In this document: in pieces, positions 57,368 through 64,000 of the stretch
How positions within the stretch are numbered: the first letter of the stretch is position 1
Layout of the letters: each line of letters starts with the position of its first letter
From: Eubacteriales bacterium
GTDB taxonomy: Bacteria > Bacillota > Clostridia > Lachnospirales > Lachnospiraceae
Reading direction: 5' to 3'
NCBI GenBank assembly: GCA_030536555.1
Contig: JAUNPU010000003.1
Coordinates: 124,001-188,000 of the forward strand
Length of the DNA stretch: 64,000 nucleotides
Made by a program: the position numbers and the translations under genes
The notes under the pieces: model-generated
What the model saw: the letters and a program-made list of their open reading frames with translations, nothing else
Told to the model about the DNA's origin: nothing
Databases searched by the model: none

Positions 57368-59268
57368 TCGTCCGCGTGGTCGTAGATAAACTGTCTGCGG
57401 GGCGGCACATCGCTTCCCATCAGCATTCCCGTCACCTCCGACGCCATGCGGGCATCCTCGATTTCCACCTGCTTGAGTACCCGGTGCTCCGGATCCAGCG
57501 TCGTCTCCCAAAGCTGCTCCGGGTCCATCTCACCAAGACCCTTGTATCGCTGCAGGCGGAAGTCCCCGGTGTGGTTCTTCCGGTAGCGCTCCAGCTCCTT
57601 GTCGTCGTAAAGATACTGCTCCTGTCCCCGGGACGGAATCACCTTATAAAGCGGCGGCATGGCGATATACACATGGCCGTTGGTGATCAGCTCCGGCATG
57701 AAGCGGTAAAGAAACGTCAAAAGCAGCGTATCAATATGGCTGCCGTCCACATCCGCATCGGTCATCAGTATGATCTTGTGGTAGCGGAGCTTCGCAATAT
57801 CAAAATCATTGCCGTATCCCTCGGAGAATCCGCAGCCGAAGGTGTTGATCATGGTCTTGATCTCCGCATTGGCAAGCACCTTGTCCATGGAAGCCTTCTC
57901 CACATTGAGAATCTTGCCGCGGATCGGCAGGATTGCCTGATACTGGCGGTTCCTCGCCGTCTTGGCAGAACCGCCTGCAGAGTCTCCCTCTACAATGAAG
58001 ATCTCGCACTTCTCCGCTTCCCGGCTCTCGCAGTTTGCAAGCTTTCCGTTGCTGTCAAAGGAGAACTTGGACTTGACCAGCATATTGGTCTTTGCCTTCT
58101 CCTCCGCCTTGCGGATCTTCGCGGACTTCTCCGCACAGGAAATAATGCCCTTCAGCACCTCCAGATTCCGGTCAAAGTAGTGCTGCAGCAGATCGCCGCA
58201 GACCGTAAATACCGCCTTGGTGGCATCTGCGCTGGCAAGCTTGGTCTTGGTCTGTCCCTCGAAGATCGGGTCCGGGTGCTTCACTGCCACAATGGCGGTC
58301 ATGCCGTTGCGGGTGTCGGCACCGGTAAAGTTCGGGTCCTTCTCCTTCAGGATTCCCAGCTCTCTGGCATAGGTATTGATCAGCTGGGTGAACCGGGTCT
58401 TGTAGCCCACCAGATGAGTGCCGCCCTCCTGGGTAAAAATGTTGTTGCAGAAGCCAAGGATATTCTCCTCAAAGGCATCCACGAACTGGATGGCAACCTC
58501 CACCTCGATCTTGTCCACCTCACTCTTAAAGTAAATGGGATCGTGAACCACAGTCTTGCCGCGGTTTAACTCCTTCACATATGCAACAATGCCCTCCGGC
58601 TCATGGTAGGTGATGGTCTCCTCCTCCCCGTGTCTGCGGTTCTCATACTGAATACACAGATTCGGGTTCAGATATGCAGTCTCGTGAAGGCGGCTCTTCA
58701 GCCAGTCCGCCTTGAACCGGGTCTTCTCGAAAATCTCGTCATCCGGCAGGAAATTGATCTCCGTACCGGTCTCCTTCGTCCGCCCGATAGTGGGCAGCAG
58801 ACCGTCCACCAGCTTCTCCGTCGGGATACCGCGCTCGTAGGAATCGTGATGAATGTAGCCATTCTTATATACCTTCACGTCCATGTGAGCTGACAGTGCA
58901 TTTACAACCGAAGAGCCTACGCCGTGAAGACCGCCGCTGGTCTTGTAGGCATCATTGTCGAACTTGCCGCCTGCGTGAAGAGTGGACAGAACCACTCGCT
59001 CTGCGGAAACTCCCTTCTTGTGCATCTCCACCGGGATACCACGTCCGCTGTCCCTGACCGTACAGGAGCCGTCTGCCTCCAGCGTCACCCAGATCTGGTT
59101 GCAGAAGCCCGCCAGATGCTCGTCCACGGCGTTGTCCACGATCTCGTAGATCAGATGGTTCAGCCCCTTGGTGCCAACGCCGCCGATATACATACCCGGA
59201 CGCTTCCGTACTGCCTCCAGTCCTTCCAGAACGGTGATGCTGTCTGCATTATATTGTGTCTTTGCCAT
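57349..59268 (-). CDS. parE: Type IIA topoisomerase subunit B (topoisomerase IV-like)
   Basis: 639 residues. GHKL ATPase motif I EIVDNAVDEH, motif II DSGRGIPVE and motif III GGLHGVGSSVVNALS are present, as is the TOPRIM magnesium site EGDSAGGSAK and DADVDGSHIDTL. The ATG at 59268 (MAKTQYNADSITVLEG) has GGAGG five bases upstream. Ends in EAEIDA; the 3' end is duplicated past the stop. Partner of the subunit A gene 121 bases downstream. Confidence 0.92.
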   Translation of the reverse strand: MAKTQYNADSITVLEGLEAVRKRPGMYIGGVGTKGLNHLIYEIVDNAVDEHLAGFCNQIWVTLEADGSCTVRDSGRGIPVEMHKKGVSAERVVLSTLHAGGKFDNDAYKTSGGLHGVGSSVVNALSAHMDVKVYKNGYIHHDSYERGIPTEKLVDGLLPTIGRTKETGTEINFLPDDEIFEKTRFKADWLKSRLHETAYLNPNLCIQYENRRHGEEETITYHEPEGIVAYVKELNRGKTVVHDPIYFKSEVDKIEVEVAIQFVDAFEENILGFCNNIFTQEGGTHLVGYKTRFTQLINTYARELGILKEKDPNFTGADTRNGMTAIVAVKHPDPIFEGQTKTKLASADATKAVFTVCGDLLQHYFDRNLEVLKGIISCAEKSAKIRKAEEKAKTNMLVKSKFSFDSNGKLANCESREAEKCEIFIVEGDSAGGSAKTARNRQYQAILPIRGKILNVEKASMDKVLANAEIKTMINTFGCGFSEGYGNDFDIAKLRYHKIILMTDADVDGSHIDTLLLTFLYRFMPELITNGHVYIAMPPLYKVIPSRGQEQYLYDDKELERYRKNHTGDFRLQRYKGLGEMDPEQLWETTLDPEHRVLKQVEIEDARMASEVTGMLMGSDVPPRRQFIYDHADEAEIDA

Positions 59269-59356
59269 GTTTTCCTCCATACCGTATCGTTTCTTCATGG
59301 AGTTCTGCCTGCGAACTCCCACAATGCTTTTGTCTCCCCAAAAGCACACCGTTTTC

Positions 59357-59386
59357 ATTATACACAAAAAGCCCTGTAAAAAGCAA
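59357..59386 (-). promoter_or_regulatory. Promoter of parE-parC
   Basis: Minus strand: -35 TTGCTT (59381-59386), 18-base spacer, -10 TATAAT (59357-59362), 89 bases before the start codon. Confidence 0.6.
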
Positions 59387-59440
59387 GTTCTTTTATCGAA
59401 CTCACTTTCGATAGGAACTCACTTTTTTAGACAGGGCTTT
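59368..59440 (-). terminator. Long hairpin, probable terminator upstream of parE
   Basis: AAAGCCCTGT (59368-59377) pairs with ACAGGGCTTT (59431-59440); between them TATCGA/TCGATA pairs, and GAACTCACTTT is repeated. The minus strand continues with a T run (TTTTTGTG). It may end the serpin operon while holding the parE -35. Confidence 0.6.
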
Positions 59441-59490
59441 GCGCTGTTATGGCTCACGCAAGACAAAATATACTTTGCTTTATAGAGGGA

Positions 59491-59760
59491 GATTGGACAA
59501 TTTCAACCTGAAATACCTGAAAATTGTCCAATCCACCCTGGCAATCACGGAATATGAGGACTAGTTAGTTGACATAAAACACGTTTTGGACAATTTTTCT
59601 TCAAACAGCCCCTTAATTATCCAAAATCTCCGGAATTTTGGACATGGATAGCCTTTCAAGGGCAAAAATTGTCCAAAATTTACTTTATGTCAACTGATAA
59701 TCGCCCCATCCAGAATACTTTGGACAATTTTTTCAATAATATCCATTTATTATCCAAAAC
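59491..59760. repeat. Intergenic array of TTGGACAATT motifs, locus 1
   Basis: Eight copies or near-copies of TTGGACAATT (or its complement) lie in alternating orientation: 59493, 59522, 59586, 59615, 59638, 59667, 59720 and 59748. The first pair makes a 43-base hairpin (59491-59533). No gene is convincing between 59441 and 59852; this array is its main content. Similar motifs fill 63733-63904. I do not know this element. Confidence 0.8.
59568..59694. mobile_element. Putative MITE-like element with 11-bp terminal inverted repeats, copy 1
   Basis: GTTGACATAAA (59568-59578) and TTTATGTCAAC (59684-59694) are perfect 11-bp inverted ends of a 127-base element that holds four of the TTGGACAATT motifs. 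No open frame. A 124-base relative with the same ends is at 63797-63920. I see no target-site duplication, so mobility is inferred from the ends and the second copy only. Confidence 0.6.
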
Positions 59761-59852
59761 GTGAGACCTTTACGATATTACCGTGATGTTACGCTATGAG
59801 AGCAAACAGCAAACCTTCCTCTTCCGCCAGAGAATAAACAGCAGCTTTGCGC

Positions 59853-60581
59853 TCACTTCCTGAATACATACCAGGCTTCTCCGATGGAGACCATCAGCCA
59901 TCCGTCAGCATCGTAGTCATTAGTATAGGACTCTCCCACGCAGCCGAAGTTCGACTCCCCCTCCTCATCCGGAAGCTCTCCCGCCGGCACCGATGACCGG
60001 ATAGCCCCTCGCACACAGCCGGAATCTCCCATCGGTCCGGTTTCCTTCGTCCCGTGATACAGAGTTCCATTCACATACAGAAGCCGTTCTTCCATCTCCA
60101 TATGATTCAGCGGCAGATAATTTCCGAAAAATTCTGTAATCTCCTCGATTCCCATGCCGTCCAGCGTATAACGATTGGGATACCCGGCATCCCTGTCATG
60201 AGTTCCGTAGTAAAATGCAGGACTGTCCCCGAATCCAATGGAAAATAATGTCTCACCCGTCCGCTCTTTAAAACAACACACTTCATAGGACCCCTCATAA
60301 TATCCTTTTCCGCTTTCCCGGTTCGTCCCTTTCACACCACCAAGAAACGCAAGAATCTTCTCAATCTCCTCCGGCTTCTCAATCCAGACATACTCTCCGG
60401 AATGCATACTCTGCACCCTCACGCAGTTGACCTGACCAAATTCTGTATCTGCAAAGGATATCGCGGCACTTTGCCTTCTGCCGCCAGACAAAGCAAAGAC
60501 AGCAGCAGCGACACAGACTGCCAGGACTACGCCAACAGCCACCCTTGCAGCAGATAACGGTCTCTTTTTCGTGTTTTCCAT
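59853..60581 (-). CDS. Hypothetical anchored protein
   Basis: 242 residues. A hydrophobic segment near residues 13-32 (VAVGVVLAVCVAAAVFALSG) follows a basic start, then an extracytoplasmic domain with RVQSMHSGEYVWIEKPEEI and ADGWLMVSIGEAWYVFRK-like (C-terminus WLMVSIGEAWYVFRK). No known motif. GGGGAGG precedes the ATG. Last gene of a three-gene unit with a membrane protein and the serpin. Confidence 0.75.
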   Translation of the reverse strand: MENTKKRPLSAARVAVGVVLAVCVAAAVFALSGGRRQSAAISFADTEFGQVNCVRVQSMHSGEYVWIEKPEEIEKILAFLGGVKGTNRESGKGYYEGSYEVCCFKERTGETLFSIGFGDSPAFYYGTHDRDAGYPNRYTLDGMGIEEITEFFGNYLPLNHMEMEERLLYVNGTLYHGTKETGPMGDSGCVRGAIRSSVPAGELPDEEGESNFGCVGESYTNDYDADGWLMVSIGEAWYVFRK

Positions 60582-60603
60582 CGTGCATTCCTCCCCTCAT
60601 ACG

Positions 60604-61599
60604 CTAACTGATGGCAGCCGTCAGCAGCCCGCACACCAGGCTGGCTATATTTGCAGTCAGTGTAAATATAGCCAGCTTTCTGGTTCCAATCTCGTCAAAC
60701 TTCTTCCGATAATACCAATACTCCCCCATCACCACCACAAGCTCCAGAAAAACCAGCTTCGCAACATAGTTTCCGCCCATGCATTGCATCAGCAGGTTAA
60801 AGAGCAGATTGCTGAACAGGTTTACCTTTGCAACTGTAAGAATAGAACCGATTTTAAAAAGATAAGCCGCCACACACTCCACAATGACCGTAAGCATCAT
60901 ATGAAAGATCAGTCCGCCGGGAGCAAACAGAAGCCAGAACAGACTGGAAAGCAGTGCCCCCAAAATACTGGAAAGCGAATAACCCTCATAGATATTGGCA
61001 TCCAGCTCCCCGGTGGTTCCATTGTAGCGAAGTCCCGAGGTCAGATACCCTCTCCTGCTTTTCGGCGCAATCGCAGCTTTCGTGGAGACCTGCAGCACAG
61101 CGCCCGCATCATCCAGCACAGCTACTTTTATGGCACCGAACTGCTCCTGTATATACTTTAAGTGGGACTGCCCCTCCACAGTTCCATTGACGCCGAAATC
61201 AAACGCCCATTCCGTCCGACGCTCGCCAAGGTCATTTTCCCATGTTCTGCAGGTCGCCCCTGCCATGTGGGCACAGTAGCTGACATAGCCCTCCGCATCC
61301 CGGTAGGTCACAATCTCACTGTCGGGGTCGAGCCCTGTGAGCTCCTCAAACTTCTCATTGTAAAGCATGTAAGCTGCGTCCCCCTCCGAAATGGGAATCA
61401 ACAGCTCCAGACGATCCGTCTCCTGCGGCAGCTCATCCCCGTAGATGGTAAATGAGCCCGCCGGAGCCGGACTGTTGGCATAGGACACCATCTGACCAGA
61501 AGCAAAACAGCCAAATACAGTCAGTCCAAATACGAAAGCCACACAAATGTTCCGCATCCATATATTCTTCCTGATCAAATCCATAAGTAATTTTCTCAT
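60604..61599 (-). CDS. Hypothetical membrane protein with large extracellular domain
   Basis: 331 residues. A signal anchor near residues 16-38 (RNICVAFVFGLTVFGCFASG) is followed by an about 170-residue extracytoplasmic region (including GYVSYCAHMAGATCRTWEND with two Cys), then five or so helices to the C-terminus (SSILGALLSSLFWLLFAPGG onward). GGGGAG lies seven bases before the ATG at 61599. Gaps of 22-23 bases join it to the serpin and the next gene. Family not recognised. Confidence 0.75.
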   Translation of the reverse strand: MRKLLMDLIRKNIWMRNICVAFVFGLTVFGCFASGQMVSYANSPAPAGSFTIYGDELPQETDRLELLIPISEGDAAYMLYNEKFEELTGLDPDSEIVTYRDAEGYVSYCAHMAGATCRTWENDLGERRTEWAFDFGVNGTVEGQSHLKYIQEQFGAIKVAVLDDAGAVLQVSTKAAIAPKSRRGYLTSGLRYNGTTGELDANIYEGYSLSSILGALLSSLFWLLFAPGGLIFHMMLTVIVECVAAYLFKIGSILTVAKVNLFSNLLFNLLMQCMGGNYVAKLVFLELVVVMGEYWYYRKKFDEIGTRKLAIFTLTANIASLVCGLLTAAIS

Positions 61600-61622
61600 A
61601 AGCAAGCTCCCCTTCGTCGGTC

Positions 61623-63026
61623 TCAGGATGCATCCATCCCCCGGTACACCCCGATAAACAGCGGGATTCCTTCCCGGCTCACAATCCCGTAGAGGAACGG
61701 GCGGTCCAGAATCATATCCGCATGGTCTGTGGGCATGGCGGCTCCTGCATAACCGATTTCCGTAAATGCAGCCGCCTCCACGCCGTTCTCATCAATACCA
61801 ATATGTGCCTGCTGCTGAATCACATCAATCCATGCAGGCTGAGCAGTCATAGCCGAGAAATCCGCATCCGTCTCAAATGCCGTCGAGAGTCCAAGCGCTT
61901 TCAGAGATTCCCTGAGATCATACTGGCTTCCATAAGAAAACTTCGGAATCTTGAAGGTAATCGTTCCATAGTGATCCTCACCGCCACACAATGCATCCTC
62001 CAGCTTTTTCTCATCGCCCATCAGCGCATCCACGTCCGTTCCATCCTGCGGCAGCACAAACACCATCGAACCAAGCTCCTTCAGCCCGCATTCGGCGCGC
62101 AGAAAGCCTTCGCCGGATGCAAAGGTACCGCTGCCATTCCGGTTCATGAACGGAATCTGCCTTGTGGTTCCGTCTGCAAGATAAAAGGTATCCTCCACCG
62201 TCTTTGCCGGGTCGAACCGGTCCATCCATTCATCATACAGATAAATTGTATTGAGAATGGTCATCACCTGCTGCCCGCTGGTTTTCATCTCAGGAGTCAG
62301 AAGTCCCTTTGTCTGCTGCTTGATCCATTCGCCCATCTTCTCGCCGGTTCTCGCATCTCCAAAGTCAGCAAGGTACAGGCTGGAATAGAAATCATCCTGC
62401 GCTGATTTCAGATAGGTATCCTCAAACACTCCATCCCGGTTCAGCCAGAGAGAATTGGCAATCTGAAGCCTGCTGGTATCCTCATCAAGATACAAATACC
62501 GGTACAGCTTACCGCACTGGTCTGCCAGCTTTTCCTTAGACTCCATTCCCAGAACCTGCTCAAATTCATTAAACGTCTCTCCCTCTGCTCCCACTGCCGC
62601 TAAGGAAAGCGCATAGTACAGGCTGACCGGCGAATAGATTTCATTTTCCTTCGTATCCCGAAGCAGCCTGCTGGCTGTCTCGCATGTAAACTTCCGGATA
62701 TCCTGAATCGTATTCTCATCTACCCGATTTTCCTCCTGAAACGCCCGGAACTCATCAAACTCCTCCCGTGACGGTTTCTCCAGTGCCTGCGGTTCTGCCA
62801 CTGTAGTCACATCTCTGTCGTTTGCTTCTGTACTGTTTGCATCTGCACTGTTTTTGCTCATACTATTCTTATCTGCCCCGTTCTTATCCGCACTGTTCTC
62901 TGTCTCAATTACCTCACTTGCCATCATCTCCAATGCCTGCATATCGTCCAGCCGGACTACACAGCCGGACAGCAGTCCCACTGACATACATATTGCCAGA
63001 ATCATCCCACTCCATCGTCTCTTCAT
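61623..63026 (-). CDS. Serpin family lipoprotein
   Basis: 467 residues. Signal peptide with lipobox LLSGC, then an about 70-residue Asn/Asp/Ser-rich linker with imperfect repeats of the NSADKNS type, then the serpin fold (NEIYSPVSLYYALSLAAVGAEGET; NTIYLYDEWMDRFDP; FLYGIVSREGIPLFIGVYRG). The hinge and reactive loop read GIDENGVEAAAFTEIGYAG then AAMP; P14 is Val rather than the usual Thr/Ser. By counting, P1 is Ala. Surface serpins of gut commensals inhibit elastase-like proteases. ATG 63026 has GGGGAGG eight bases upstream. Confidence 0.92.
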   Translation of the reverse strand: MKRRWSGMILAICMSVGLLSGCVVRLDDMQALEMMASEVIETENSADKNGADKNSMSKNSADANSTEANDRDVTTVAEPQALEKPSREEFDEFRAFQEENRVDENTIQDIRKFTCETASRLLRDTKENEIYSPVSLYYALSLAAVGAEGETFNEFEQVLGMESKEKLADQCGKLYRYLYLDEDTSRLQIANSLWLNRDGVFEDTYLKSAQDDFYSSLYLADFGDARTGEKMGEWIKQQTKGLLTPEMKTSGQQVMTILNTIYLYDEWMDRFDPAKTVEDTFYLADGTTRQIPFMNRNGSGTFASGEGFLRAECGLKELGSMVFVLPQDGTDVDALMGDEKKLEDALCGGEDHYGTITFKIPKFSYGSQYDLRESLKALGLSTAFETDADFSAMTAQPAWIDVIQQQAHIGIDENGVEAAAFTEIGYAGAAMPTDHADMILDRPFLYGIVSREGIPLFIGVYRGMDAS

Positions 63027-63072
63027 CACAGTTTCCTCCCCGAAACATCGAATCGCAAGTTACTATAGAGAA

Positions 63073-63081
63073 ATTATACCA
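63073..63081 (-). promoter_or_regulatory. Extended -10 promoter of the serpin operon
   Basis: Minus strand TGG-TATAAT (TATAAT at 63073-63078, TG at 63080-63081), 47 bases upstream of the start codon. Confidence 0.6.
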
Positions 63082-63178
63082 TGGGCAGCTGTTGGATACC
63101 TTACTTTTCCATTAATATTCCTGAAGCTTTCTGTTTCATTATAAGTCATTCTGATTTTGCAAAGTCTGCCCTCAAAAA

Positions 63179-63201
63179 AAGAGAGACCCACAGCCTCTCT
63201 T
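63179..63201 (-). terminator. Terminator of the Rpn-like remnant
   Basis: AAGAGAG (63179-63185) pairs with CTCTCTT (63195-63201); the minus strand continues in a run of seven T. It lies 16 bases past the stop at 63217. Confidence 0.8.
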
Positions 63202-63216
63202 CGTCAAAATCTCTTC

Positions 63217-63564
63217 TCACAGCTTTCGCTGCCCAATGCGAATCTCTTCCAGCATCTCCAGAATCCGCGCATCCTCTGCATCCGGTTCTTCGCTGATACA
63301 CGCAGAAATCTCCGCAACCCGGCTCCCATCTTCCAGCAGATTCTCTGCAATCTTCTCGACAGTCTGACCTCGCTGCATCTTTTTCCTGATCAAAGAAATC
63401 AGCTTTAATGTTGCGCCATCCTCTCTCGCGTCTCTTATATCAAGTTTCCGCTGTTTCTTTGGATCATATTCGGTTAACAGCACTCTCGTCACCTCATTTC
63501 TATGCTTCAGCAGAAATGCTTTTAACACATCGTGATCAATGAACTTGTAACTTTTCTGGAACAT
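63217..63564 (-). pseudogene. C-terminal fragment of an Rpn-family PD-(D/E)XK nuclease/transposase
   Basis: 115 residues. FLLKHRNEVTRVLLTEYDPKKQRKLDIRDAREDG resembles the C-terminal region of Rpn/YhgA-type recombination-promoting nucleases (quoted as FLLKHRNEVTRVLLTEYD), followed by a helical tail QRGQTVEKIAENLLED. The nuclease core that should precede it is missing; upstream DNA is the repeat region. So this is most likely a remnant. The ATG at 63564 has only a weak site. Confidence 0.6.
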
Positions 63565-63730
63565 TTTTTCTCATCTCTGTACATCTATTATAATAGATTT
63601 AAAAATTGATTACAAATTCTCACGGAAAATTGATTGCAAGAAAAATTTACATAAGAGCTTGACAGAAGGTTGACAGTTAAATCTGGATAGCTGCAATTCA
63701 CTCATAGCGACTACGCTCATCATCGGTATC

Positions 63731-63920
63731 GTTTGGACAATTATAGGCGAATATTCAAAAAATTGTCCAATCATGTCCGTGAAACGGAAGTTTAAATTGA
63801 CATAACACGCGTTTTGGATAATTTCAGCCTGAAAGTCCTGAAAATTGTCCAAAAATCTTGGCATTTTGGATAATATGAGCTGGATTTCAATCATAATTGT
63901 CCAAAATAGCTTTATGTCAA
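63731..63920. repeat. Intergenic array of TTGGACAATT motifs, locus 2
   Basis: Six copies or near-copies of TTGGACAATT in alternating orientation at 63733, 63761, 63814, 63843, 63866 and 63895. The pair 63812-63855 forms a hairpin with CAGCCTGAAAGTCCTG in its centre, matching the CAACCTGAAATACCTG hairpin centre of locus 1. Region 63565-63730 holds nothing I recognise. Confidence 0.8.
63797..63920. mobile_element. Putative MITE-like element, copy 2
   Basis: TTGACATAA (63797-63805) and TTATGTCAA (63912-63920) are inverted ends of a 124-base element in the same orientation as copy 1; both begin GACATAA(A)ACACG(CG)TTTTGGA(C/T)AATTT. The hairpin module that lies outside copy 1 is inside copy 2. 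Confidence 0.6.
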
Positions 63921-63935
63921 CCAGAAATCGCTGTG

Positions 63936-63987
63936 TTGGAGATAAATTCGGATAATTTATTTGAAAGTATTAACCATATATCTCCAA
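63936..63987. repeat. Inverted repeat at the window end
   Basis: TTGGAGATA (63936-63944) is complementary to TATCTCCAA (63979-63987) around a 34-base AT-rich centre. It may extend the repeat cluster beyond the window. Confidence 0.5.
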
Positions 63988-64000
63988 ATTTCAACAAAAA

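Follow-up and report, generated by a model that had tools for sequence, protein, structure and literature searches.

Upstream of parE, in the 64,000-nucleotide stretch of DNA analysed here (the window), lies a 265-bp array of eight short sites grouped as four modules, and a second array, overlooked by the sequence-only reading that preceded this work, is found at 63733-63987. The gene between the two (61623-63029) encodes a serpin (PF00079, E 4.9e-68) with an apparent lipoprotein signal. Each module is an inverted pair of a 9-base site word, TTGGAYAAT-N20/21-ATTRTCCAA, and the two arrays, here copy 1 and copy 2, are made up as follows:

59493..59757, - strand (orientation as in alignment A1): copy 1, full four-module, eight-site array, 265 bp
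59493..59531: copy 1, module TTGGACAATT...AATTGTCCAA, 39 bp
59569..59577, + strand: copy 1, second conserved site TTGACATAA, beside one inner module
59586..59624: copy 1, inner module TTGGACAATT...AATTATCCAA, 39 bp
59625..59637: copy 1, central gap of 13 bp, the length being invariant (87/87 arrays)
59638..59676: copy 1, inner module with degenerate first site TTGGACATGG
59685..59693, - strand: copy 1, second conserved site TTATGTCAA, beside the other inner module
59720..59757: copy 1, outer module TTGGACAATT...TATTATCCAA, 38 bp
59758..59802, + strand: copy 1, outer flank, a weak match to the conserved flank of subfamily A
63690..63732, + strand: copy 2 (locus L184), outer flank, one of the 43-bp flanks conserved in subfamily A
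63733..63987, + strand: copy 2, second four-module array, last half-site degenerate

Eight alternating copies of one motif had been described upstream of parE, and eight alternating positions are indeed present over 59493-59757, but they are not all alike: five are exact TTGGACAATT, one carries a single change (TTGGATAATT at 59615, - strand), and the remaining two depart further from it (TTGGACATGG at 59638 and TTGGATAATA, with its end at 59757). All the exact copies of the motif in the 64-kb window fall within the two clusters, and the number of one-mismatch matches was equalled in only one of 100 shuffles. The perfect 11-bp inverted ends (AGTTGACATAA / TTATGTCAACT) attributed to a 127-base element are likewise there, although the segment that they span measures 129 bp (59567-59695), and it is not the unit of the family: no more than 14 of 77 arrays have the second site, TTRTGTMAA, on both sides of the inner modules, and the true unit is the four-module array of about 265 bp. 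Downstream of copy 1 the parE promoter, conserved in relatives, has been left intact. The gene upstream of parE is a different one in every relative compared. Just upstream of this promoter (window 59390-59416) there is also a TATCGAAAGTAAGTTCGATA-like palindrome, conserved in over half the congeners that were compared; it is similar to a LexA-type operator and might control parE.

The two arrays belong to a large family. In the host genome (3.59 Mb in 59 contigs, 98.7% complete), the copy count that the sequence-only reading had named as a check on its proposal shows that further copies do exist, about 90 in all, dispersed; array detection was motif-based, so that decayed copies may be under-counted in this figure and conservation over-stated. 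A blastn search with the array core gave 79 matches, the pattern TTGGAYAATN{14,26}ATTRTCCAA returned 324 modules against none for its reversed control, and the 150 scored matches of a sequence-only model of the core, on both strands, came down to 90 places. Of the 91 module chains read, 78 have four modules and about 12 have fewer, a contig end explaining some of these. In an array, a 13-bp centre (87/87) separates two inner modules, each of which is followed outward by a spacer and an outer module; of the 350 modules, 347 measure 38 or 39 bp, with the half-sites of each inverted pair 28-29 bp apart, and the outer gaps are of 42-44 bp (n=109) or 53-54 bp (n=63) and of no other length. On 74 of 154 sides, as against 2 of 154 outer flanks, an inner module has the TTRTGTMAA site 7 or 8 bp beyond its outer edge, and 60 of 77 arrays have it at one inner module or both. 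The GC content of the arrays is 35%, and within subfamilies conservation extends outward into flanks of about 43-66 bp. At one locus, L005 (1351-2200), the array is longer, with further ~92-bp units in tandem, and contains an assembly gap of 100 N. Arrays near the contig ends of this assembly (G000; e.g. L013, L137, L143, L166, L176) are commoner than expected.

Among relatives the family is scarce. Exact modules were found in five of 145 of them, with clusters only in the host genome, in G010 (STD2_177, another species of the same genus) and in G068 (Lapin-021 bin77, of another genus); in G070 the module pairs were inside genes or solitary. In 397 sampled Lachnospiraceae genomes, a draw from which G010 was absent, more than one module occurred only in the host genome and G068; the more sensitive core model matched G010 and none of the 22 other congeners, and a scan of genome contigs gave, among the matches listed, clusters only in the records of G010 and G068. 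Thus, a search of Lachnospiraceae, as the sequence-only reading had suggested, finds arrays in two further genomes, but nearly all the relatives sampled are without them. The G010 and G068 arrays share two neighbour genes with those of the host genome (a MatE transporter and a protein of ~230-280 aa), about the level expected by chance, and a shared array position across species was rejected. Nor did a phage or plasmid origin stand, as plasmids and phages were searched with no match and viral contigs held only single modules, one per contig.

Two loci compared across about 20 congeners bear on the gain of the arrays. The purO-purH gap is of 440 bp with an array in the host genome, and of ~11-103 bp in most congeners, none of which has an array (in one it is of 258 bp, with another palindromic repeat); the spoIIE-tilS gap is of 492 bp in the host genome and about 0-215 bp, without an array, in most relatives, G018 having a long gap of 873 bp and no array. 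At these loci the additional DNA is about 130-190 bp more than the array itself, which means that the inserted unit was larger or that some other change accompanied the insertion. In the congener G019 (L206, L249), another palindromic intergenic repeat, GGTCCTGTGTGCCAGTGGCACAC-like, is found in the purO-purH gap as well as upstream of parE.

What has been preserved within the arrays is not evenly distributed. Over 921 array pairs the motif differs by 1.7% and the spacer by 45%, a contrast inflated by the motif-based finding of the arrays, and in the closest pair there are 0/63 differences in the motif versus 28/181 in the spacer. Across 624 sites, conservation is 99-100% at positions 0-4 and 6, and most spacer columns carry little information. 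Among the arrays compared there are no near-identical pairs, the best reaching 87.5% overall, so the arrays are not recent copies; furthermore, arrays with several damaged sites, as neutral decay would predict, are seldom seen, even though the search tolerated up to two mismatches per site. From this we infer that, after insertion, selection has acted on the sites of each copy.

The spacing of the sites follows a rule of its own. The two classes of outer gap (43/44 versus 53/54 bp) differ by one helical turn, the four-module array of G010 (L047) has outer gaps one turn shorter than those of the host genome, and the modules of G068 are 106-149 bp apart. Eight distinct back-to-back site distances from the three species show a period of ~10.5 bp (R=0.946, P=2e-5 by simulation against uniform distances); the test was limited to distinct distances, as the spacings within the host genome share ancestry and hence are not independent. 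In G010 there is also another phase-locked layout, with single sites in one orientation every 83 bp, three times (L236, 1503-2270). The helix-phased spacing, together with a conservation of the motif far above that of the spacers, strongly supports the array of protein-binding sites that had been proposed as one of three possibilities for copy 1, and the data fit eight putative double-strand protein sites in a common register.

Another of those possibilities, a structured RNA in which the inverted pairs would form hairpins in transcripts, fares much worse. Pairing over about 9-10 bp is possible in every module, and some arrays lie within operons and are probably transcribed; against this, none of the 19 pairs predicted in the consensus fold shows compensatory change, the C/T and G/A variants of the two halves do not covary, and at the variable motif position of the four-module arrays the class with both halves changed numbers 10 where about 16 would be expected. 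Single changes are symmetric between strands (89 CA modules, 88 TG modules), so that neither strand is favored, and a search of Rfam 15 with E up to 1 gave as its sole match a tRNA beside L002, and none in the window at 58000-64000. As the array spacing, moreover, tracks the DNA helical repeat, the phasing, the contrast between motif and spacer and the absent covariation speak for protein sites on double-stranded DNA and make the RNA explanation very improbable.

The third possibility, a MITE, deserves more attention. Bacterial MITEs have been reviewed (PMC10969869), and like them the arrays are short (~265 bp), non-coding, AT-rich (35% GC) and intergenic, in about 90 dispersed copies, with array-free gaps in relatives at the two loci described above; most copies have terminal inverted repeats (TTTGGACAAT/ATTGTCCAAA) and unrelated flanks, the repeats being short and of a word that recurs internally. 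If this were an ordinary family of non-autonomous transposons, the motif would be nothing other than the binding site of a transposase, and the copies would be decaying after insertion. However, across 78 arrays target-site duplications show no excess beyond noise at any tested offset (lengths 2-10, offsets 0-15, both sides), no pair is nearly identical, all eight internal sites are retained while the spacers diverge, and the purO-purH gap has about 390 bp extra, more than an array alone accounts for. An autonomous partner was not found either: 317 of the 324 exact modules are within the arrays read, so that few remain beside a possible transposase gene, and Y1 transposases, the family searched for, are absent. 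The arrays also differ from MITEs in conserving internal sites and not only ends, and in spacing that shifts by whole helical turns. Since the defining duplication was looked for over these 78 arrays and is missing, the family is not filed here as a MITE, and an ordinary decaying family of this kind seems unlikely, even if the spread of the arrays was probably MITE-like.

Other dispersed repeats offer partial parallels. BIMEs are known protein-binding sites (PMC2817692), and the arrays are like REP/BIME elements in being high-copy and extragenic, with regularly spaced motifs that alternate and are inverted; a REP/BIME-type element could have been moved by a REP-associated tyrosine transposase (RAYT), perhaps with a DnaA-like domain, given that TTRTCCAAA is near the DnaA box. 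By contrast, the arrays are long-looped, have a fixed four-module architecture and are in a genome without a RAYT; REPs, by the tag definition in PMC3733652, are short-loop palindromes with a GTAG/CGTC-type end tag, while the loops here are of 19-21 nt and no flanking tetranucleotide or end tag is conserved (624 sites). In the host genome (98.7% complete) Y1_Tnp (PF01797) has no match and the single Bac_DnaA_C domain belongs to a 518-aa frame of the kind expected for DnaA itself; thus neither a RAYT nor a DnaA-domain transposase can be the mover in the genome in its present state, and an origin of this type is scarcely credible. The BOX element of Streptococcus pneumoniae is an A-B-C composite with a predicted RNA fold (PMC3049150), and the arrays resemble it as modular intergenic repeats in which tandem units may be added (cf. 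the 92-bp units of L005). In comparison with the published layout of BOX, all the modules of the array are variants of a single inverted pair, and there is no conserved RNA structure. The res sites of serine resolvases consist of several inverted half-site pairs, each taking one dimer, with a spacing that matters for the complex. The likeness to them is one of layout, as that is generally described; no resolvase is linked to the arrays, and there are about 90 copies instead of one.

The gene context does not favor a regulatory explanation. The arrays keep clear of predicted genes, with one exception in L005, where the ORF call is doubtful; 64 lie between tandem genes, nine between convergent and eight between divergent ones. 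Genes that face an array with their start are a median of 206 bp away from it, those that face it with their end 122 bp. The sites could be the operators of one transcription factor, with an array upstream of the genes of a large regulon; the distance to facing gene starts, rarely under 100 bp, and the intact parE promoter are compatible with this. Nonetheless, the downstream genes span 121 Pfam families, none present in more than three of 75, no family is common among the array neighbours, nine arrays lie between convergent genes, and the copies share sequence beyond the sites, which indicates spread by copying and not a site-by-site origin. With the gene theme absent, the regulon was rejected and is a distinctly improbable explanation.

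In summary, the arrays are probably best read, from sequence comparison, as a dispersed and selectively maintained scaffold for a putative dimeric DNA-binding protein. Each copy would offer, on double-stranded DNA, eight 9-bp TTGGAYAAT sites as four inverted pairs, each of which would be gripped by one dimer; with whole helical turns between one pair and the next, four dimers would be held in a shared register and could assemble cooperatively into one complex. The arrays would have spread through an insertion mechanism since silent or missing, and each copy would have been under selection after its insertion. The most likely role, and the weakest step of this proposal, would be that of a genome-wide architectural or insulating nucleoprotein site, which is likelier than a regulon operator because the neighbouring genes have no common function. 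More tentatively, and with the balance somewhat against it, these could be the parts of a chromosome-wide nucleoprotein system not described before: a patchily inherited DNA-binding protein with a four-dimer scaffold that was dispersed to ~90 intergenic sites and kept by selection, related species using other phase-locked layouts of the same 9-bp word. In the literature, a text search with the motif returned primer-type matches only and no report on the array element was found.

Repeats scattered through bacterial genomes are usually taken for mobile DNA in decay. In this family, the regular spacing and the conservation of each copy point instead to a working protein scaffold, repeated along the chromosome and missing from close relatives. 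The identity of the binder would show whether a single lineage can gain a genome-wide architectural system, and for finding it the array is a ready bait.
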